This document shows positions 53,483-63,991 of a stretch of 64,000 nt of DNA, piece by piece. Source of the DNA: an uncultured Prevotellaceae bacterium. Lineage in GTDB: Bacteria; Bacteroidota; Bacteroidia; Bacteroidales; Bacteroidaceae. Each line of letters opens with the position of its first letter. The stretch's first letter is position 1. The stretch is from positions 1 through 64,000 of the forward strand of contig CADAAR010000012.1 in the NCBI GenBank assembly GCA_902785945.1. Direction: 5' to 3'. The notes beneath the pieces were generated by a model. The model saw only the letters and a program-made list of their open reading frames with translations, did no database searches and had not been told where the DNA came from. Made by a program: the position numbers and the translations under genes.

Positions 53483-53734
53483 TTACTGCCGCTCCCGATG
53501 ATATGAGGAAAAGATCAGAGACCTGTCACAGTCTTTGTCCTGGAAAGTGGCGTTGTTCGTCTTAATGACAAACAGCCCGTTTTCGAATGTGGTCTCAGGC
53601 ATATCGTTCAGGTCAAAATAGACCTTTTCACCCGACTTCTGCCAAAGCACGAGTCGCTTGGTTGCCGCCTGTGCCCACATCGCCGTAGCTGCGAAACAGA
53701 ACAGCAGGCTAAGGAGTAGTAATCGTTGTTTCAT
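53483..53734 (-). pseudogene. Truncated copy of the small T9SS-tagged gene
   Basis: 83 codons. The signal peptide and domain to NNATFQ are nearly identical to the full small genes at 56530, 59703 and 63503, but the sequence then changes to an unrelated DKDCDRSLIF tail and stops, losing the sorting domain. It lies 18 bp after the last large gene and has no large partner, so it is the decayed end of the tandem array. The product would be secreted into the periplasm but not surface-sorted. Confidence 0.8.
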
Positions 53735-53752
53735 AAACGCTTATTTTTTTAG

Positions 53753-56533
53753 TTAATCATTATTCGTCTTGGGAGGTTCAAAAAAGACACCAGGAGAGGC
53801 CCATGCAGTGAAATTGGTCAATGTCTTTGTTCCTTTCTCAGAACTTTCAATTTTCAGCTCTTTATCACTATAGCCAGAATCGTCAAAGGAGAATGTTGCC
53901 GTATGTTTTTCATACTGGCGTTTATTATCCGCATCTATCCAAGTCTTATAAGAGGTAGTAGTACAATGACCATTTTGGAAGATAAACCAATTGTCGTCAA
54001 AACGACTGACTTTTACCCCTGGCTTATTTCTCAGGACATAATCAAACTCCATTGCCAGATTATCGTAATTATCACCAGATTGTTGACTACAGCTCAATCT
54101 GCAATGCCATCCTTCTCCACTAGCTAAACGACTAACCTCACTATCGACATTAGAATAATCGCCATAGGTATTACATCCGCCACTTTTCTCACCATCCTTA
54201 CCGTCAACATAACTCCATCCCGCCGAAGTGGTAAAGTATTTCGGATCCAGTGTAAGGTTTGGCATTTGCAAAATGCAGAACTTATACTCATCGGTTATAA
54301 ATAGCTGTTCATTAATGTACGCATAACCTAAATAGGGGATAGGGTTATCATTATGAAAAATCAACGTGTCTGCAGGACTATAGTTCTTACAGCAATAGCC
54401 ATAAATTTCTTGATCTAACCATTTCTTTTGGTCAACAGAAATCTCTGTACGCCCCTTACTTCCCTTGGTTACTAAGAAATCCTTCATTAATTTATCGGTG
54501 TGATCTGGAAGATAGAAGTATGGCGGTTTGATGCCATCTTGATTGCCCTTACAGACAATTGGCGTCTGCGTCGAACCATCATAATTCAAGACGAGCGTAT
54601 CGCTACTTACATTCATCTCCACACCATGAAGGAACTCATACTCAGTAGGCGAGGCAATTTCCATTCCCAGGATACTTACATACGGACGAACCTTAAACCT
54701 TCCACTTTTTCCTATATGGGGATTATCGTCTGTGGGCGGATAGTAGGGAATAACCATCTCAGTTTCCATAGTTTGGTTAAAAATACCTTCCACCAGGGTA
54801 TACCGCTGGCTATGTTCCTGACTGCTTTTTACTCCGTATTCTAAGTCGTACAACGTAACGCCTATCGGGAGCGGGAATAGCACATTACCCTGTGGCTGAA
54901 ATGCCAGAATGCGGCAAGGTAAGACTTCACCATTAATAAATCGTTTGTCCTCGTAATCCCGACATTCGCCAAACTCTGGAACCAGCGACACCTCAAAAGG
55001 TTTAAAGAGACTGACCGTACCATTGGCCAACGACCACTTTTTCTTTTTCCCAAATGCTGATTCTACTTCAGCCTTGATCTCATAGTCTGCATCACAAAGA
55101 CTAACCGAAGCCTTCGTATTACTCAGCAGGTTATATGCAAACTCACCTGCTTTAATGTTATAATTAGTCCCACTATACAACGTCTTGAGGACATCTGTCA
55201 GGTCAAGTCCGATAGTCCCGGAGAATTTAGGGCCTACGTATGTATCACCCCCTATCTTAGCATCAAAGAATTTTCTGACGAGTGGAAGACTCTTAAACTT
55301 CAGGGGGAAGAGCATACCTGTCTGCACAAAGCCATCGAGCTCCAATTTAACGCCAGCATTACTTAAGTCATAATACGTTCCTTGCTTTTCATCAAGTTTG
55401 CCAAATCCCATATCCAGATAGGGCCACCAATCAATGATCTCCAACTTTGTCCATATAGACGTACCCACCCTAGGCGACGTCGCAGAGAGTTTTACGTGAG
55501 CCTCACCACGCAGGAATCCGTCAGGTCCTACATCTATCATCATTAGCGGGAAGGTTGCAGGAACAGGAATCTGCCCAAGATTACCAGCACCTGTTTGGAA
55601 GGATTCCGCAATCTTTCCGTCAGCAGTGAATCCTAAGGAAAGCCCAGCAGAGGCTTTTGTGGTGATAGAAAAATATTTCTTACCGATAATAGGTATATCC
55701 CATACGGTCTTTATGTGAAGTTTTCCGTCAATACTTGCGCCGACAGAAAGTTCCAAAGAGTCATTGGATTCATTGATGGGACCTGACCAAAGGGTGTATT
55801 GTCCATTGATAGAGAAATTAAAAAGATCACCCTCCCAATTGCCACTAGCTCTTTTGTTTGTCGTTCCTACATTCAGTTGCGGCATTCCTGCCACACGACG
55901 ACGTGCAAGTGAACCGTCATCATTATAGCCATATTCCTCAACCGCAATAAACTGTCGAAGGATATCCGAGATATCATCGATGGGTTTGCAGATAGCCACC
56001 AAATTCCCTTCATATCCCTCGTAATCACGAGTGAGACTGACAATTTTAGCGCTCCAACCATCGTTAATATCCGGATCTACAAACACATCTCCGACCTGTG
56101 GCATCGGGAACCCTTCATAATCATCTATCGATCTTGAAAACGAAATAATCTCATGATCTTCCCCATAGTACTCACTATAATCCATATATGCCAACAATGA
56201 GAAATCTCCATAATCCGGGTCTTGTCCCTTAATATGAACCTGAGGATTGTATATGATTTCCGGCTGCACGAATCCGATGGAGTCGATAGCGGAGAGCATG
56301 ATGCGGTAGACGGAGTCGGCTGTAAAAATCTCCTGGCTAACAATTTCATCGTGCTCCACACCAAGGGTATCGAGGAACGAGAACGACATTTTCTCGATTT
56401 CATCGTAGAAAAAACCATCAAAGTGGCCATCATTCTGATAGATATAGAAGGCCTGGTTCTCTGTCTGCGCCTGCATGGGCAGAGCGGCCAGCAACATGAT
56501 GGCGAGGCTGGCAAAATATCTTAGTTGTCTCAT
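53753..56533 (-). CDS. Large secreted protein, tandem family copy C
   Basis: 926 residues, signal peptide ending PMQAQ. Family N-terminal module (about 24-94): FYIYQNDGHFDGFFYDEIEK, then TADSVYRIMLSAIDSIGFVQPE. The body is beta-rich with motifs shared with copies A and B: GDVFVD, IDDISDILRQFVAVEEYG, RRRVAGMPQL, WEGDLFNFSING, LGQIPVPATFP, GPDGFLRGEAHV, WWPYLDMGFG, GPKFSGTIGLDL, and a conserved Cys pair in FGECRDYEDK...LPCRILAF. No sorting domain, lipobox or enzyme motif. Overlaps its small partner by 4 bases. Function unknown. Confidence 0.85.
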   Translation of the reverse strand: MRQLRYFASLAIMLLAALPMQAQTENQAFYIYQNDGHFDGFFYDEIEKMSFSFLDTLGVEHDEIVSQEIFTADSVYRIMLSAIDSIGFVQPEIIYNPQVHIKGQDPDYGDFSLLAYMDYSEYYGEDHEIISFSRSIDDYEGFPMPQVGDVFVDPDINDGWSAKIVSLTRDYEGYEGNLVAICKPIDDISDILRQFIAVEEYGYNDDGSLARRRVAGMPQLNVGTTNKRASGNWEGDLFNFSINGQYTLWSGPINESNDSLELSVGASIDGKLHIKTVWDIPIIGKKYFSITTKASAGLSLGFTADGKIAESFQTGAGNLGQIPVPATFPLMMIDVGPDGFLRGEAHVKLSATSPRVGTSIWTKLEIIDWWPYLDMGFGKLDEKQGTYYDLSNAGVKLELDGFVQTGMLFPLKFKSLPLVRKFFDAKIGGDTYVGPKFSGTIGLDLTDVLKTLYSGTNYNIKAGEFAYNLLSNTKASVSLCDADYEIKAEVESAFGKKKKWSLANGTVSLFKPFEVSLVPEFGECRDYEDKRFINGEVLPCRILAFQPQGNVLFPLPIGVTLYDLEYGVKSSQEHSQRYTLVEGIFNQTMETEMVIPYYPPTDDNPHIGKSGRFKVRPYVSILGMEIASPTEYEFLHGVEMNVSSDTLVLNYDGSTQTPIVCKGNQDGIKPPYFYLPDHTDKLMKDFLVTKGSKGRTEISVDQKKWLDQEIYGYCCKNYSPADTLIFHNDNPIPYLGYAYINEQLFITDEYKFCILQMPNLTLDPKYFTTSAGWSYVDGKDGEKSGGCNTYGDYSNVDSEVSRLASGEGWHCRLSCSQQSGDNYDNLAMEFDYVLRNKPGVKVSRFDDNWFIFQNGHCTTTSYKTWIDADNKRQYEKHTATFSFDDSGYSDKELKIESSEKGTKTLTNFTAWASPGVFFEPPKTNND

Positions 56534-57018
56534 TGCTTCAGGAGTTTAATTGTTTCACTTCCGGCTTTCACGATATACACACCAGCAGGACGCTGGGCGA
56601 CAGAGAGGGTGAGTGGCTGACTATCCGTGACCTTTCTCGTCTCGAGGATCGTACCGTTCGCAGCATAGATGGTAACGACAGTCCCTGCACGCAGGTTTCT
56701 CATCGTGACCTCATCACCTTCCTTCGACAGGCTGATGCTACGCTCAGAGGGCAGCAGGCTGATACCTGTGTTGCCCGTACCTTCAAAGGTGTAACGCAGC
56801 ACATTGTCCATCTGATATTGGAAGGTGGCGTTGTTCGTCTTGATGACAAATAGGCCGTTTTCGAATGTGGTCTCAGGCATATCGTTCAGGTCGAAATAAA
56901 CCTTCTCGCCCGACTTCTGCCATAACACGAGCCGTTTGGTTGCCGTCTGTGCCCACGTCGCCGTAGCTGCGAGGCAGAACAGCAGGGATAGGATTAATTG
57001 TTTATTTTTCATATTCAT
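56530..57018 (-). CDS. Small T9SS type A sorting-domain protein, copy C
   Basis: 162 residues (160 if the second ATG at 57012 is used). Signal peptide ending WAQ, a ~60-residue domain RLVLWQKSGEKVYFDLNDM...FQYQMDNVLRYTFEG, then a type A sorting domain (about 85-162) ending PAGVYIVKAGSETIKLLKQ, the signal for T9SS export and surface attachment. There is no other effector domain. The TGA overlaps the ATG of the large gene (ATGA), so translation is coupled. It lies 48 bp after copy B's large gene with no promoter between, so B and C are one operon. Confidence 0.88.
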   Translation of the reverse strand: MNMKNKQLILSLLFCLAATATWAQTATKRLVLWQKSGEKVYFDLNDMPETTFENGLFVIKTNNATFQYQMDNVLRYTFEGTGNTGISLLPSERSISLSKEGDEVTMRNLRAGTVVTIYAANGTILETRKVTDSQPLTLSVAQRPAGVYIVKAGSETIKLLKQ

Positions 57019-57066
57019 TTCTACATTTCCGTTTTACTATGAAGTCCTTATATTAGACGTTCAATT

Positions 57067-59706
57067 TTAAAAATTATCTGGTAAGGCCTCTTGGAAATAC
57101 ACATATATACTTGAGTGTTTACCACCTGAGGTTTCAAAAAAGTTTTTATAATACCCATCTTTGAAATCTCTATCCTGCTCGACTGTTCCATTTGGTCTAC
57201 AGGAAATTGTTTCTTCAATGCTCTTTATAACCTTATTATCCTTCATCTGTTTATATGAATAAGTACCATTCTTCATTGAATACATTGACGAATTCTCATC
57301 CAGGACAATGTCAAAAACCAATTCCTGAATTTCATTGTCATAATTGTATCTTCCCTCAAAATGCCATCCATATCCTACAGTACTAACATCTGCAAATGTT
57401 ATATTCCACTTCCAATTCCTATAATCATAATATAAATATTCCAAATACAAGTCATCACTTACTCGTACAGCGACAGGCACATCTTGATTGTTTGGAGCCA
57501 TCTGTATCGAGAAATAATGTGGGTCGGATACAAATATTTCACCCTCGTAATCATTTGCTCCAACATAATGAGTAAGAGGCAATGTCATTGGGTCACGAGG
57601 ATTAAAATTCTTGATTTTGTGTTTCGAGTTAAATTTTATTATATCGGAAGAAACAATAATTAAGTCATCATCGGTAATGTCAAAATAACCATAATCATCT
57701 CTCATTATTTTATTATGAACACCAGAGGCAATAATGGGATATGTTGTTATTCCATCATACGTAGTAAAAATAGTATCACTGTTAGTCTTTAATTCTGCTA
57801 TACCATATTCAAAAGTGTATGCTGGGTCAGCGATAACGAATTGATCATCCCCAGGCATTCCTGGCACAAACACCGTGGGGGTTACCTTGTATTTACCACC
57901 CACTATGGATGACCGTGTTATTTGTCCTTCATGTATCGGTATTACCAACTCTGCCCAGTGTGATTTATCGAGTTCTGTTCCCATCATCTCTGCTAAATGA
58001 TAATAGGGAACATAACTGTACTTAGCACTACCAAGAAATCTATCCTCATAATCGATGTTCTTGAGATAGGTTCCAATATACGTCGGTTTTATGACATAAC
58101 CACTTGGTTTGAAACTAAGGACACGACATTTCATTAATTGTCCTTCTATCATTCGTTGATCAATATAATCTGAACACGCTCCAAATTCAGGAACCAATTT
58201 AGCTTCTACGGTTGGTAATATATTAAAACTGCCATCGAAGAGAGTCGTCGACTTTTCCTTACCAGATCCTAATTTAACCGTGTTTTTGACTTCAAAATCG
58301 GCATCCAAAAGATGTAGTTGGAATTTAATGTTCTTTAGTTGTTTATATGTCGCATCATCATCCCACGGCATCTTAGTCAAATCCAGCGAAAAATCTGCCC
58401 CAATTTTTGGTCCCAAAAACCAACGGCCACCGAGATTGAGTTTAAACCATCTTTGTATAGTAGGCATACTTTCAAAAGTAATGGGCATAAGTACTCCTGC
58501 TTGCAAAAAACCACTAAATGACAAGGTTGCACTAACTGTATTAGGACTCTCCGGTTCTTCTTTTGGGCTCTTTGGGGCACCAAAGCCCATATCAAAACTG
58601 GGAACCCAATTGTTGATTTCCAACTTGGTCCAAATGCTACTTTTGGCCTTGGGTGTCTGTAGGGCAAATTTAATATGGGCATCGCCACGTATGAACGGAT
58701 CCGGTCCAACTTTAATGAAGAACAACGGGAAAGAAGCCGGAACTGGTATTGAAGCAAAATTACCTAATCCAGGAGACATATAATCTGCTATTTTACCATC
58801 AATGACAAAACCAAGACCTATTCCAAAGTCAAGATTTGTATCAATACCAATATGTTTATCACCAAAAAGAGATAGATTCCATACTGTTTTTACATGTAGT
58901 TTTCCTTCTATAGAAGGCATGAGATATGCTGATAGATCATCATCGCCTGCAAGAGGAAGATATCCATTAATGGAGAAATTAAAGATATCGCCTTCTAAAA
59001 TTCCTTCTGCCCTTCTCGTAGAAGATTTCTTGGGGAATACACCAACTGTCAAATCAGGACGGCCAGAAACCCGACGACGTACCATATTACCTTGTTCGTC
59101 TTCTCCATATTCCTCAACACAAACAAATTGCTCCAAGATATCCGTAATGTCATCAATGTCTTTCAAGTGAACAGCCAGGCCTTCCGCTGTTTCTTTGATA
59201 CTCTCTACCTTAAAGGCAAAGCCATTGTAATATTTGAGACCAAAATCAACAAACACGTCACCCACCTGTGGACGTTTATCAACTGGCATTTCAGAACTGA
59301 ACAGGCAATCGTATTCTTCAGGCCAATCCATAAGGTATGTCAAGAAATCCATGTCTCTTTCCATATTAGGATATGTCGTTGGATCCAAATCGTAGCAGTC
59401 CCATCTGAACATTCGTTTATTTAAGATAACTTCCGGCTGCACGAAGCCGATGGAGTCGATGGCAGAGAGCATGATGCGATAGACGGAGTCGGCAGTGAAA
59501 ATCTCCTGGCTCACAATTTCGTCGTGCTCCACACCAAGGGTATCGAGGAACGAGAACGACATTTTCTCGATTTCATCGTAGAAGAATCCATCAAAGTGGC
59601 CATCGTTCTGATAGATGTAGAAGGCCTGGTTCTCTGTCTGCGCCTGCATGGGCAGAGCAGCCAGCAGCATGATGGCGAGGCTGGCGATATATCTTAGTTG
59701 TCTCAT
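57067..59706 (-). CDS. Large secreted protein, tandem family copy B
   Basis: 879 residues. Signal peptide and N-terminal module nearly identical to copy C down to about residue 93, after which the text departs abruptly (LNKRMFRWDCYDLDPTTYP). Later family motifs return: GDVFVDFG, DITDILEQFVCVEEYG, RRRVSGRPDL, LEGDIFNFSINGY, GPDPFIRGDAHI, NNWVPSFDMGFG, GPKIGADFSLDL and the Cys pair FGACSDYIDQ...MKCRVLSF. The C-terminal third is the least conserved. Lower GC and many Tyr, Asp and Asn codons compared with the housekeeping genes. Confidence 0.85.
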   Translation of the reverse strand: MRQLRYIASLAIMLLAALPMQAQTENQAFYIYQNDGHFDGFFYDEIEKMSFSFLDTLGVEHDEIVSQEIFTADSVYRIMLSAIDSIGFVQPEVILNKRMFRWDCYDLDPTTYPNMERDMDFLTYLMDWPEEYDCLFSSEMPVDKRPQVGDVFVDFGLKYYNGFAFKVESIKETAEGLAVHLKDIDDITDILEQFVCVEEYGEDEQGNMVRRRVSGRPDLTVGVFPKKSSTRRAEGILEGDIFNFSINGYLPLAGDDDLSAYLMPSIEGKLHVKTVWNLSLFGDKHIGIDTNLDFGIGLGFVIDGKIADYMSPGLGNFASIPVPASFPLFFIKVGPDPFIRGDAHIKFALQTPKAKSSIWTKLEINNWVPSFDMGFGAPKSPKEEPESPNTVSATLSFSGFLQAGVLMPITFESMPTIQRWFKLNLGGRWFLGPKIGADFSLDLTKMPWDDDATYKQLKNIKFQLHLLDADFEVKNTVKLGSGKEKSTTLFDGSFNILPTVEAKLVPEFGACSDYIDQRMIEGQLMKCRVLSFKPSGYVIKPTYIGTYLKNIDYEDRFLGSAKYSYVPYYHLAEMMGTELDKSHWAELVIPIHEGQITRSSIVGGKYKVTPTVFVPGMPGDDQFVIADPAYTFEYGIAELKTNSDTIFTTYDGITTYPIIASGVHNKIMRDDYGYFDITDDDLIIVSSDIIKFNSKHKIKNFNPRDPMTLPLTHYVGANDYEGEIFVSDPHYFSIQMAPNNQDVPVAVRVSDDLYLEYLYYDYRNWKWNITFADVSTVGYGWHFEGRYNYDNEIQELVFDIVLDENSSMYSMKNGTYSYKQMKDNKVIKSIEETISCRPNGTVEQDRDFKDGYYKNFFETSGGKHSSIYVYFQEALPDNF

Positions 59707-60185
59707 TGCTTCAGGAGTTTGATGGTTTCACTTCCGGCTTTCACAATATACACACCAGCAGGACGCTGGGCGACAGAGAGGGTGAGCGGCTGATTATCCG
59801 TTACATGCTTCGTCTCGAGAATCGTACCGTTGGCAGCATAGATGGTGACAACAGTCCCTATACGCAGGTTTCTCATCGTGACCTCGTCACCTTCCTTCGA
59901 CAGGCTGATGCTGCGCTCGGAGGGTAGCAGGCTGATACCTGTGTTGCCCGTGCCTTCAAAGGTGTAGCGCAACACATTGTCCATCTGGTACTGGAAGGTG
60001 GCGTTGTTCGTCTTAATGACAAACAGCCCGTTTTCGAATGTGGTCTCAGGCATATCGTTCAGGTCAAAATAGACCTTTTCACCCGACTTCTGCCATAACA
60101 CAAGCCGTTTGGTTGCCGTCTGTGCCCACATCGCCGTAAGTGCTAAGCAGAGCAGAAGCGATAGAAGTAGTAATCGTTGTTTCAT
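59703..60185 (-). CDS. Small T9SS type A sorting-domain protein, copy B
   Basis: 160 residues, differing from copy C by a handful of residues (signal peptide MKQRLLLLSLLLC and a few in the sorting domain). It is the first gene of the four-to-five-gene B-C operon, with its own promoter TATATTTG at 60220-60227 (minus) and a palindrome upstream. Overlaps the large gene B by 4 bases. Confidence 0.88.
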   Translation of the reverse strand: MKQRLLLLSLLLCLALTAMWAQTATKRLVLWQKSGEKVYFDLNDMPETTFENGLFVIKTNNATFQYQMDNVLRYTFEGTGNTGISLLPSERSISLSKEGDEVTMRNLRIGTVVTIYAANGTILETKHVTDNQPLTLSVAQRPAGVYIVKAGSETIKLLKQ

Positions 60186-60219
60186 AAGCGTTTATTTAGT
60201 TAATTGATTATTCACGCCA

Positions 60220-60294
60220 CAAATATAATAAAAAATCCGATTCATCGACTCACAATTCAACAAAATCGACTAACAAAACGCGTTTTGTGAGTCG
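60220..60294 (-). promoter_or_regulatory. Promoter and palindromes ahead of the B-C operon
   Basis: -7 box TATATTTG (60220-60227 minus). Upstream lie an inverted repeat CGACTCACAA/TTGTGAGTCG (60246-60255 with 60285-60294) and, within it, a perfect 16-bp palindrome ACAAAACG-CGTTTTGT (60273-60288). These are candidate operator sites for the array. No match to a known regulator is claimed. Confidence 0.6.
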
Positions 60295-60530
60295 TTTTCT
60301 TTAGAAAAGACCCTCTACACGCTCTCTGAGCCACATGCCAAAGAAACGGTCATACACGATATATCCTCCATCTCAGCCTCTCTGTCACAGAAATAGGCTG
60401 CACCTTTATAGCCGTAAACGACAAACGGGTTATTCAGTTCCTTCATATTTTACGCTTCATGTTTTACGAGCATTATTGTCTCCTTGACGGGGCGGAGCGA
60501 CATCGCTGCCGCTACATATCCACTCTAATC

Positions 60531-60557
60531 AAAAAGGGGCCTCGCCATTGAGGTCCC
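60531..60557 (-). terminator. Terminator after large gene A
   Basis: On the minus strand GGGACCTC pairs with GAGGCCCC (one G-U) around a 6-base loop and is followed by TTTTT. It separates unit A from unit B. The rest of the gene-free stretch 60186-60662 shows three CGTCTCAAA direct repeats near 60584-60610 and a GGAGCGACAT segment (near 60493) shared with 53473, but no gene. Confidence 0.75.
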
Positions 60558-60662
60558 TTCTTAATTATTATCTTGCTTCAAAGCGTCTCAAACGTCTCAA
60601 ACGTCTCAGCGTCTTTTCTTATAAATATCACACTGGCGTGAAGTGAACCCATTGTGTTATGC

Positions 60663-63506
60663 CTAGAACGATATCTTATAATCCATGTAAATATTCCTAC
60701 TTGACTGTTCTGTTTCTGTCTTACCATTACGAATTACCGTCTCAGTAATATTAAACGGTATGGATCTATTCGGAGCAGGAGCAAAACCTTCTTGAACCTC
60801 GTTAATATCATAATCTTTTGGAGCTGCTAACGTGCATTGGAAGCTATGAGTATTTGATTCTTTTACGGTAACATTCAACTTCGTGATACGTAGTCGAGGC
60901 GAGTTCATATAATTATCCACAATACAGGGCTTCATATTTTCATTGTTATACCAGATGTCAAACTCCGCAGAGAGTGTCTTGTCTCCCTTTTTAGAATCGA
61001 TTGAGAAATGCCAACCTCTTCCGTTCTCAAGTTTGGTTACCGCCATAGGAACGTCAGAAAAATCTGTATATATGGGCCAGTCATTAAAAGAAATATTACA
61101 AGTCTTCGGGTTCTTTTTATTGGGGAGCTTATATACATATAGCTGGCGCCTTTCGGTCACAAAACTCTCGAAGATTTCTCCTTCAATAGTCTTTACGCCA
61201 CCATAGGGGGAATAGAATGCCAGTATCGTGTCGCATGGGTTATACGAATTCTTGAACTTATCAGGATTCTTCTCTATCGTAAAATTCCCATCGCTGCCTA
61301 CGATTTGCAACTCATCCATTCTTCTGCTGAGATTCAGTCCCTCATCATCGTTACGAATCCATGCATTTAAATCTGAATAGTGCGCCAGTGAGTCGCAGTT
61401 TCCTGATATTTCGAAAGTTTTTCCTGAAGGTGTGCCATCAGCATTCAGGAACAGCTTATCAGTATAAATATTGCCTCCTTCATATCGACTCTCACCGTTT
61501 ACATGCAAGACAGCTCCATGCTCAAACTCAAATTCCTCAGAACCAAACGCCTCACGTCCGAATGCTAAAGCATAGGGACTGACCTTAAATTTGCCGTTGA
61601 GACTGCTAAAATTTCTTCCTTCTCTATAGGGAATGAACAAACGGGCCCACTTATCTTTAGGTAAATCTTGGCCAAGCACCTCCGTAACATGATAATAATT
61701 TTGATGATCAGGATAGCCACCGAAATAGGTATCATCAAAGACTTCCGTTCCGTCATCCTTTATCCGTGAGATGATTTGCGCAGATATATCAACAGGCTTA
61801 ATAACGAGTCCTGAAGGTTTGAAGGCAAAAACGCGGCATTTGAGCACCTGATTGCCGTAATAATCACTCTCAAAATACTTATCCTCCGTATATTCCTCAC
61901 AATTGCCGAATTGAGGCACAAAGCTCAAATCAAGGGCAGGTAACAGACTGGCACTTCCACTGAAAAGCGTAGCCTCCTTTACGCCAGATAATGCTGTCTC
62001 CATCTTGCTTTTCACATCAAAATCGACATCCAGCATGTGCAATTGCAATTTCGTATTCAAAAGGAGAGTATACATCCTCTTTTTCATAGCATGGAAACTT
62101 GCAGCGTCAAACACGGTTTCGACAGAAGCATCCCAATCATATTCTTTCAAATCAATTGTGAAGTCCGCGCCCAGTTTCGGACCGAGGTACATTTTGCTGC
62201 CGGCACTGAAGTTGAAGAACTTTTTGAAGGTGGGCAAACTGCCGAAAGTGAGTGGGAACTGCAAACCCGCCTGCACGAAGCCATTCAAAGAAATCTTTGC
62301 TGAATTGTAGTAGTGCTCCTTCTCTTCCTCCTCACCTTCTGGCGTACCAAAACCCATATCCATACTAGGTACCCAATTATTGATCACCAATTGTGTCCAG
62401 AAACTGCCTTTTACCTTAGGTGTCATCGCAGTGAAATTAACGTGGGCTTCACCACGCAAAAAAACATCAGGTCCAATAGTAATACAAAGTATAGGGCAGG
62501 CTGCGGGTACAGGGATAGACCCTAACTCGCCGACTCCTGTATCAAAGGTTTTGCTGATAGAGCCATCAATGCTGAAACCACCTGCAACTCCGAAATTAAG
62601 TTTGGTGAGGATGTTGATGTATTTATCACCAAAAAGTGAGAGATTCCACGTTGACTTGACATGTACCTTACCTTCTATAGCTGTAATTATGTTGACATTG
62701 AGATTATCACTAGCATAAAGCGGAATATTTGAATTCATCGAGAAATTGAAAAGGTCACCCTCCCAAGTGCCTTCAGCTCTTCTTGAAGATTTCTTGGGAA
62801 AATCTCCTACAGACAGTTCCGGATGACCAGCCACACGACGACGTATCATCTGGCCTTCGTCATCATAGCCGTATTCCTCAACAGCAACGAATTGCTGGAA
62901 GATATCTGTAATGTCATCGATAGGTTTGCAGACACCTACCAGATAGCCGTCTTCATCATAATATAATCTGTCGATTTTGGCACACCAGCCATTTTGACCA
63001 CCGTTTTCTTTGTCGAAGTCAACAAACACATCGCCTACCTGTGGCAACGGCCAATGCTCCATTTTGTCGTTGACTTCATCATAATAGTAACTATTCGTCC
63101 TCTCTAGGATGTACTTGCTGAAATAAATAAACTCACCATCCTCACCATAGTCGGTATAGCTTAAAAGTTCAAAATCTCCATAGAAAAAACTCTGCCCTGC
63201 AATATGTACCTGAGGATTGTATTTCATCTCTGGCTGCACGAAGCCTATCGAATCGATAGCAGAGAGCATGATGCGATAAGTGGAGTCGGCTGTGACAATC
63301 TCCTGACTGACAATCTCGTCGTGCTCCACACCAAGGGTATCAAGGAACGAGAACGTCATTTTCTCGATTTCATCGTAGAAGAATCCATCAAAGTGACCAT
63401 CGTTCTGATAGATGTAGAAGGCCTGGTTCTCCGTCTGGGCCTGCATGGGTAGCACAGCCATCAGCATCAGCACAAGGCTGACCATAAATTTTATAAGGTG
63501 TCTCAT
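60663..63506 (-). CDS. Large secreted protein, tandem family copy A
   Basis: 947 residues, the longest member. Signal peptide ending PMQAQ and the N-terminal module match C and B with a few changes (KMTFSF, QEIVTADSTYRIM). The next 60 residues (YNPQVHIAGQSFFYGDFELL) resemble C, not B. Shared body motifs include GDVFVDFDKENG, DITDIFQQFVAVEEYGYDDEG, GSIPVPAACP, GPDVFLRGEAHV, NNWVPSMDMGFG, GPKLGADFTIDL and the Cys pair FGNCEEYTED...LKCRVFAF. It has no CTD or lipobox and ends in a plain beta-like tail. Followed by a terminator. Confidence 0.85.
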   Translation of the reverse strand: MRHLIKFMVSLVLMLMAVLPMQAQTENQAFYIYQNDGHFDGFFYDEIEKMTFSFLDTLGVEHDEIVSQEIVTADSTYRIMLSAIDSIGFVQPEMKYNPQVHIAGQSFFYGDFELLSYTDYGEDGEFIYFSKYILERTNSYYYDEVNDKMEHWPLPQVGDVFVDFDKENGGQNGWCAKIDRLYYDEDGYLVGVCKPIDDITDIFQQFVAVEEYGYDDEGQMIRRRVAGHPELSVGDFPKKSSRRAEGTWEGDLFNFSMNSNIPLYASDNLNVNIITAIEGKVHVKSTWNLSLFGDKYINILTKLNFGVAGGFSIDGSISKTFDTGVGELGSIPVPAACPILCITIGPDVFLRGEAHVNFTAMTPKVKGSFWTQLVINNWVPSMDMGFGTPEGEEEEKEHYYNSAKISLNGFVQAGLQFPLTFGSLPTFKKFFNFSAGSKMYLGPKLGADFTIDLKEYDWDASVETVFDAASFHAMKKRMYTLLLNTKLQLHMLDVDFDVKSKMETALSGVKEATLFSGSASLLPALDLSFVPQFGNCEEYTEDKYFESDYYGNQVLKCRVFAFKPSGLVIKPVDISAQIISRIKDDGTEVFDDTYFGGYPDHQNYYHVTEVLGQDLPKDKWARLFIPYREGRNFSSLNGKFKVSPYALAFGREAFGSEEFEFEHGAVLHVNGESRYEGGNIYTDKLFLNADGTPSGKTFEISGNCDSLAHYSDLNAWIRNDDEGLNLSRRMDELQIVGSDGNFTIEKNPDKFKNSYNPCDTILAFYSPYGGVKTIEGEIFESFVTERRQLYVYKLPNKKNPKTCNISFNDWPIYTDFSDVPMAVTKLENGRGWHFSIDSKKGDKTLSAEFDIWYNNENMKPCIVDNYMNSPRLRITKLNVTVKESNTHSFQCTLAAPKDYDINEVQEGFAPAPNRSIPFNITETVIRNGKTETEQSSRNIYMDYKISF

Positions 63507-63991
63507 CGCTTCATCAGTTTAATGGTTTCACTTCCGGCTTTCACAATATACACACCAGCTGGGCGCTGGGCGATAGAGAGGGTGAACGGCCGACTACCGC
63601 TCACCGTATTCTGTTCTATCAGATTGCCATTGGCGGCATAGATGGAAACGGTAGTTCCTTCTTGAAGGTTTCTCAAGGTAACCTCATCGCCTTCCTGCGA
63701 AATAATGATGCCACGCTCAGAAGGCAGCAGGCTGATGCCTGTGTTACCTGTGCCTTCGAAGGTATATCGGAGCACGTTTTCCATTTGATACTGCACGGAG
63801 CCGTTTTTCGTCTTGATAACAAGCAGTCCGTTTTCAAACGTGGTCTCAGGCAGGTCGTTAAGGTCGAAGTAGACCTTTTCACCACTTTTCTGCCAAAGCA
63901 CGAGTCGCTTGGTGTTGCCCTGCGCCCATGTTGCAGTTACAACAAAGGCCAGCAGCAGCGATACGATGGTTAGAAGTTTAATTCTTTGCAT
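63503..63991 (-). CDS. Small T9SS type A sorting-domain protein, copy A
   Basis: 162 residues, the most divergent small member: different signal peptide (MQRIKLLTIVSLL), GSVQYQMENVLRYTFEG, and a sorting domain that opens GIIISQEGDEV and ends SETIKLMKR. The layout (domain, then C-terminal sorting signal) is the same. Overlaps large gene A by 4 bases. Its promoter, and any further units, lie beyond the window edge. Confidence 0.87.
   Translation of the reverse strand: MQRIKLLTIVSLLLAFVVTATWAQGNTKRLVLWQKSGEKVYFDLNDLPETTFENGLLVIKTKNGSVQYQMENVLRYTFEGTGNTGISLLPSERGIIISQEGDEVTLRNLQEGTTVSIYAANGNLIEQNTVSGSRPFTLSIAQRPAGVYIVKAGSETIKLMKR

Follow-up and report, generated by a model that had tools for sequence, protein, structure and literature searches.

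Overlapping small and large genes in an uncultured Prevotellaceae bacterium: a probable type IX cargo encoded by a pair of genes

Results

Three pairs of small and large genes

We analysed a stretch of 64,000 nucleotides from an uncultured Prevotellaceae bacterium (assembly GCA_902785945.1, contig CADAAR010000012.1, positions 1 to 64,000), called here the window, in which three units are formed by a small gene followed by a large gene. An earlier note on this DNA had described units of a protein of about 160 residues and a protein of about 900 residues whose genes overlap as ATGA. This was confirmed: the small proteins have 160-162 aa, the large ones 879-947 aa, and the overlap is of 4 bases (ATGA) in 3/3 units. 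Each small protein carries a type A sorting domain of the type IX secretion system (T9SS), which was not found in its large partner, and we propose that each pair is probably a single T9SS cargo.

All the features given here lie on the minus strand. In the first unit, small protein 1 (63503..63991, 162 aa) consists of a signal peptide, an N-terminal module (N-module) and the sorting domain, and large protein 1 (60663..63506, 947 aa) of a signal peptide, an N-terminal docking module and a beta-rich body, without sorting domain; its proposed docking module, named after a putative role, covers residues 29-93 (63228..63422). The second unit comprises small protein 2 (59703..60185, 160 aa), with an N-module of six predicted strands that may serve in docking (residues 27-77, 59955..60107) and a sorting-domain region (residues 83-160, 59706..59939), and large protein 2 (57067..59706, 879 aa), whose proposed docking module (residues 28-92, 59431..59625) has a low-confidence model. 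The third unit is formed by small protein 3 (56530..57018, 162 aa) and large protein 3 (53753..56533, 926 aa), the latter also without sorting domain and with its proposed docking module at residues 28-92 (56258..56452).

Regarding the small proteins, the type A sorting domain claimed for them was found in 3/3, with TIGR04183 scores of 30.3, 27.3 and 27.8 bits for small proteins 1, 2 and 3 (cut-off 23 bits); PF18962 matched them only below its cut-off of 27 (21.4 to 26.1). The signal peptide was recognised from sequence and appears as a helix (residues 2-18) in the model. The AlphaFold2 model of small protein 2 had a mean predicted local distance difference test (pLDDT) of 86.5 and a predicted template modelling score (pTM) of 0.45. 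Its sorting-domain fold resembles the T9SS C-terminal domains (CTDs) 7pq4, 8qb1 and 8glk, among other immunoglobulin-like folds, and the VIA matches to the small protein model were confined to the sorting domain. Among 106 smalls, the cleavage region held the motif TG[IV] in 36 cases, a relaxed form in another 36, some of these matches being wrongly placed, and neither of them in 34.

The large proteins were said to have a signal peptide and to lack a sorting domain and a lipobox, and this stood as well, by hidden Markov model (HMM) for the sorting domain and by eye for the lipobox. A Sec-like signal peptide could be recognised by sequence in 3/3 window larges, and no lipobox cysteine was seen after it in any of the three. 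Neither NCBIfam families (E<=1) nor Pfam families were found in them, except one chance-level Pfam match (E 0.1). The AlphaFold2 model of large protein 2 had a mean pLDDT of 66.7 and many long strands at residues 234-550. A fold search with the large protein gave nothing at E<0.001, the barrel-like matches having a probability of 0.14 or less, and no convincing relative emerged when a profile of the large family was compared with solved structures.

Conservation of the pairing

The earlier note had asked for a wider HMM search for such pairs, and we found that the pairing is conserved far beyond the window. We scanned a named genome collection with an alignment of four large proteins; the choice of loci was independent of the small protein, because only larges were used as query. 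An open reading frame (ORF) with a sorting domain was directly upstream of the large gene at 63/75 loci. The spacing was -4 in 57 of these 63 cases, +11 in three, and +63, +90 and +104 in one each, the ORF at +104 being a truncated small. In 52/63 cases the upstream partner had at most 230 aa. The other 11 had 281 to 984 aa and ended in the same N-module and sorting domain; by eye they included apparent kelch propellers and what seems to be a repeat-bearing C10-type peptidase. Furthermore, in 60 genomes of the genus all the 11 large matches with E<=1e-17 (own genome excluded, weaker matches with E>1e-17 left out of this count) adjoined a small match.

Many stand-alone smalls were present, among the matches listed, in genus genomes without the large family. 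We picked by hand 39 of them from the upper part of the matches listed, some others being omitted, and in 38/39 a secreted protein without detected sorting domain lies downstream. For 35 of the 39 the follower is on the same strand, 18 of them at -4 and the others at -1 to +113. By a simple measure 34/35 followers have a signal peptide (the follower at L090 runs off the contig), and a lipobox-like heuristic matched 1/35 (L116). By eye, two of the remaining four smalls belong to intact pairs (L089, L106), a third to a pair whose junction is damaged (L104), and the fourth stands alone (L108).

At the level of the order, 17 of 148 Bacteroidales genomes had a match under a strict threshold, own genome included. 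We examined 16 of the 19 listed matches outside the own genome (leaving out G187, G081 and G163:C37), which come from 14 other genomes, and all 16 smalls had a secreted follower without detected sorting domain, nine at -4. In 198 phylum-wide genomes, at 1e-10, a single match was obtained beyond the own genome, and it covered no more than the sorting domain.

As for the secretion machine, SprA, PorU and PorV are all above cut-offs in the own genome, and SprA was found in 22/24 genus genomes searched. G010, which is 99% complete, lacks SprA and is the sole genome of the 60 without a small-profile match; its DUF4876 protein is a lipoprotein. The joint absence of SprA and smalls there is a hint from one genome. 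In G021 SprA was not found and there were two small matches; this tells little, because the genome is 50% complete.

Search for an export signal in the large proteins

A hidden C-terminal sorting domain in the large proteins, or frequent larges with their own CTD and no small partner, would speak against the divided cargo suggested in the earlier note, and neither of them was found. An HMM of the smalls' sorting domain, run with filters off and with a damaged fused copy excluded, detected a long sorting domain in 0/80 larges (4 of the 80 were cut before the C-terminus), and the best value, 0.056, was internal. This HMM missed the short sorting domains of three glycoside hydrolase (GH) enzymes. 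A second HMM, built from six seed domains, two of them taken from those enzymes, recovered all three; resting on these 6 seeds, it detected a short domain in 0/76 complete larges and 0/50 other followers. A loose regular expression for the short domain (GxY, basic end) matched 2/76 larges and 1/50 other partners. The members of the partner families that do have their own sorting domain lack both the docking region and the small gene.

Unrelated partners and forms without the small gene

The follower families are mutually unrelated and include GH26 plus GH5 enzymes, DUF4876, an alkyl sulfatase, a calycin-like barrel and some proteins without family. This bears on the possibility that the large protein remains periplasmic or lodges in the outer membrane and that the small is its chaperone, inhibitor or regulator, the sorting domain serving the small only. 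A shared inhibitor or regulator is unlikely because the partners (GH26 plus GH5, alkyl sulfatase) are unrelated to one another. The many long strands in the model of large protein 2, with no confident solved relative, and the 12/75 larges without adjacent small would suit a periplasmic or outer-membrane protein, whereas the low probability of the barrel-like fold matches argues against this explanation. The GH26(-GH5) forms without small gene, which have their own sorting domain or lipobox, speak against it as well. On balance we consider this explanation improbable.

GH26-GH5 homologues were present in 19/299 genus genomes. An extra N-terminal region of about 100 residues was found in 14 GH26(-GH5) homologues, of which one has GH26 without GH5, and a small-family gene lies upstream of 14/14 (11 at -4), with a sorting domain in 13 of these 14 smalls. 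In contrast, of the complete GH26(-GH5) enzymes without the region 0/4 have a small gene within 600 bp (14/14 vs 0/4, Fisher p 3e-4), and three of these four end in a short sorting domain, the fourth being by eye a lipoprotein. Another GH26-GH5 enzyme, L168, also lacks region and small gene, but it is cut by the contig end. The protein of PDB 6d2w, which we take to be a Prevotella bryantii enzyme, matches L163, one of the 14, without any difference over 776 residues, and L163 has a small gene upstream at -4. Thus, the GH26(-GH5) family exchanges the docking region and the small gene for an export signal of its own.

The exchange also bears on the possibility of an anchor only, in which the small would be exported alone and fixed to polysaccharide, and the large would leave otherwise and be caught at the surface. 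An anchor and a carrier would show the same pairing, docking modules and anchoring step, and larges without adjacent small gene agree with an anchor. However, neither a long nor a short sorting domain was detected in the larges, nor a lipobox by eye, and those GH26(-GH5) enzymes that have neither docking region nor small gene bear their own export signal. The small gene therefore seems to replace the export signal too, and an anchor that does not carry is an unlikely explanation, albeit the strongest of the alternatives.

Regarding DUF4876, we chose by hand 40 places; the lower-scoring group supplied the second batch, and one place (L210) was known beforehand to hold a small. With the classes of L184 (docking) and L202 (lipoprotein) assigned by eye, they comprised 25 lipoproteins, 10 proteins that bear the docking motif, 2 that have a short sorting domain, 2 that end in a dockerin-like stretch and 1 cut at the 5'-end. 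A small lies within 600 bp upstream of 6/10 docking forms (5/9 without L210) vs 0/27 lipoprotein or own-domain forms (p 9e-5). The small of L193 is at 367 bp, and the wide range was applied to 39/40 loci, omitting the 5'-cut L208. The dockerin-like stretches, seen by eye, are at the end of L207 and L209; another one precedes the modules in L098, a protein described below.

In GH26(-GH5), and to some extent in DUF4876, the small is thus present where the N-terminal region is, which speaks against larges that bear an export signal of an undescribed kind, next to a small gene that is only a linked passenger. The ATGA-overlap linkage also recurs with unrelated partners. The C-termini of the larges, which are diverse and unclassified, would leave room for such a signal, as would the larges without adjacent small, yet no common C-terminal motif is visible. 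This is the least probable of the explanations that we weighed, and we hold it very unlikely.

Likeness and co-variation of the N-modules

The docking modules of large proteins 1 and 2 are 96% identical, whereas their bodies are 40% identical; residues 24-92 of large protein 3 are identical to large protein 2, and these bodies are 38% identical. Since the docking modules of the window are 96-100% identical and the bodies 38-40%, we regard them as one docking class with diversified passengers.

The N-modules of the two partners had been noted to look alike. A direct profile comparison did not support this, but a short motif taken from other partners matches both. This follower motif, built from 28 of the 35 followers, consists of a strand, a DG turn, a strand and then DIxxItF. 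It matched the halves of the small N-module at 74% and 89% and those of the large N-module at 51% and 67%, with 0/60 shuffles as good each. Compared directly, the halves gave weak matches: the first half of the large module matched the small halves at 19% and 5.5%, and its second half matched the second small half at 12%, again with 0/60 shuffles as good. The likeness of the half-modules is suggestive only, because we picked the segments by eye, in register. A better N-module match was discarded, as it was due to the damaged fused copy, which the alignment had included.

The docking HMM detected 31/35 genus followers (mostly its training set), 7/16 order-level followers and 1/85 background proteins. 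As controls we selected by hand 20 long cargo proteins that bear a sorting domain themselves, and 11 of them have a follower within 300 bp; the docking motif was seen by eye in three (L119, L120, L125), and the docking HMM detected 0/11 control followers.

The distances among small N-modules correlated with those among large N-modules at r 0.82 (65 pairs), which is closer than the correlation of the large N-modules with their own next domains (r 0.73, bootstrap difference 0.035 to 0.125). Two kelch-like partners from one metagenome-assembled genome (MAG), L037 and L048, are 86% identical over 139 residues, with modules 35% and large N-modules 50% identical. Module, sorting domain and large protein thus move as a set there; we did not count them as support, because one contiguous exchange gives the same pattern. 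In another genome, L098 has an intact frame whose single product by eye combines an N-module of the small type with one of the large type, with no sorting domain detected. Such a single chain fits contact between the two N-modules.

Neighbouring genes and damaged copies

A truncated fourth small gene (53483..53734) encodes a signal peptide and most of the N-module, without sorting domain; its residues 1-67 are 91% identical to small protein 2 and it is divergent beyond. Two further small and large pairs lie directly outside the window. Upstream of small gene 2 there is a fragment (~60330-60450) whose start matches an intact ATPase-like gene (L003 2301-3446), which on this contig precedes a different small gene. 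The ATPase-like fragment suggests that the unit was perhaps duplicated together with its neighbour gene. Between pairs on the same contig there is also a 685-aa protein, lipase-like by eye, with its own sorting domain (L002 801-2858).

In a damaged copy (L002 11378-14548, C12:74777-77947) what is left of a small gene continues into a large gene without a stop codon. We rejected the frame C12:74777-77947 as a natural fusion of small and large, as its small portion is shortened and does not keep the reading frame in the region of the signal peptide.

Discussion

A probable cargo divided between two proteins

The pairing, the gene overlap, the larges without sorting domain, the presence of SprA, PorU and PorV and, in the GH26(-GH5) family, the exchange of docking region and small gene for an own sorting domain are observed. 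Our interpretation, to which we give a probability of roughly 70%, is that each pair is one type IX cargo from two genes, in which the small gives the signal and the surface anchor in trans. The overlapping genes would allow both proteins to be produced together, and each of them would pass the inner membrane via its own Sec signal peptide. The N-module of the small would then bind the N-terminal docking module of the large, and the sorting domain of the small would bring the complex to the SprA/PorV translocon. PorU would cut between the N-module and the sorting domain and join the N-module to surface polysaccharide, and the mature small would be an anchored docking peg that keeps the large protein outside. 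The small had already been suggested as the carrier of the large; the conserved pairing and the lack of sorting domains agree with this, and binding, export as a complex and dependent on the small, cleavage and anchoring are the steps that we infer.

Several observations count against this proposal. Regarding the N-modules, hhalign gave the direct homology of the window-family modules a probability of 1.5%, with 9/200 shuffles as good, the comparisons of the second large half with the first small half (40/60 shuffles) and of the two large halves with each other (9/60) failed, and the docking HMM detected only 2/79 window-type larges (score 6). The sorting domain of the small correlates with the large N-module as well (r 0.77), and since it also tracks that module, the co-variation of the N-modules is unspecific. 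By the patterns used, 34/106 smalls have no cleavage-like motif, and the small upstream of one GH26(-GH5) enzyme (L160) has no sorting domain by HMM and ends by eye in a dockerin-like stretch instead. Regarding the pairing, the small at L108 has no partner, and 12/75 large loci have no adjacent sorting-domain gene: two at a contig edge (L006, L034), six in one MAG (L007, L013, L019, L031, L038, L039) and four others (L021, L022, L047, L049). Finally, 4/10 docking DUF4876 proteins (L184, L191, L192, L195) have upstream a gene for a lipoprotein of about 115 residues instead of a small. A carrier in trans does not account for these four, which are perhaps a lipid-anchored version of the same arrangement.

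The MAG RGIG9995 holds nine large-family loci (L006, L007, L013, L019, L028, L031, L034, L038, L039), most of them without adjacent small. One small may serve several larges in trans there, or the system may be decaying.

Relation to known systems

Type IX cargo is recognised via a sorting domain within the same chain. The pairs share with same-chain type A cargo (TIGR04183; RgpB, mirolase, NucA) the sorting domain of the small, its CTD-like fold and SprA, PorU and PorV; however, the small here is without effector and the large partner without detectable sorting domain. For Prevotella intermedia, the passages covered of one paper describe cargo with short sorting domains of 40-55 residues (PMC11969387). 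This species belongs to the same bacterial order, a cleavage region of the T/GI type occurs in part of the smalls, and short CTDs are found in the GH26-GH5 enzymes without docking region, whereas the larges have no short CTD (0/76, 0/50).

Export of a protein together with a signal-bearing partner is known from the Tat hitchhiker mechanism, as in Escherichia coli PaoABC (PMC4273604, in the parts covered), where a signal-bearing subunit is proposed to carry a signal-less one as a folded complex. Membrane and machine are different there, and in our case the partner has its own Sec signal and would need help only at the outer membrane, the co-export itself being our suggestion. In T9SS type B cargo with PorP-like partners, according to the passages covered of PMC9143113, a cargo is also linked to a second protein for surface anchoring. 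There, however, the CTD belongs to the cargo, which is linked to a PorP-like protein of the outer membrane, whereas here the CTD-bearing partner is a small soluble protein. As for the Segatella copri GH26-GH5_4 enzyme (PMC12704710), the homologue identical to PDB 6d2w has an upstream small at -4, and the passages covered of that paper name neither a small sorting-domain gene nor T9SS.

In open papers searched by term match we found no description of a type IX signal acting in trans, and the T9SS cargo review PMC10202324 gave, in the parts covered, no passage on a trans carrier under terms such as 'partner' or 'lacking'. Thus, type IX cargo and Tat hitchhiker export are known parts, and a type IX signal in trans appears to be new, as far as we found no description of it.

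Implications

The small gene has about 150 codons, and if our interpretation is true the pairs could become a two-part tool for surface display. It would give the GH26-GH5 enzyme a specific and testable export route, and a class of Bacteroidales secreted proteins without lipobox or sorting domain would gain a route to the surface. We see about even chances that the arrangement is a general adaptor of the Bacteroidales, in which small pegs anchored to polysaccharide and occurring in matched classes would, in trans, export and display as folded complexes many enzymes and adhesins that are unrelated to each other. In that case, the prediction of cargo from sorting domains alone would miss a sizeable part of the surface proteome.

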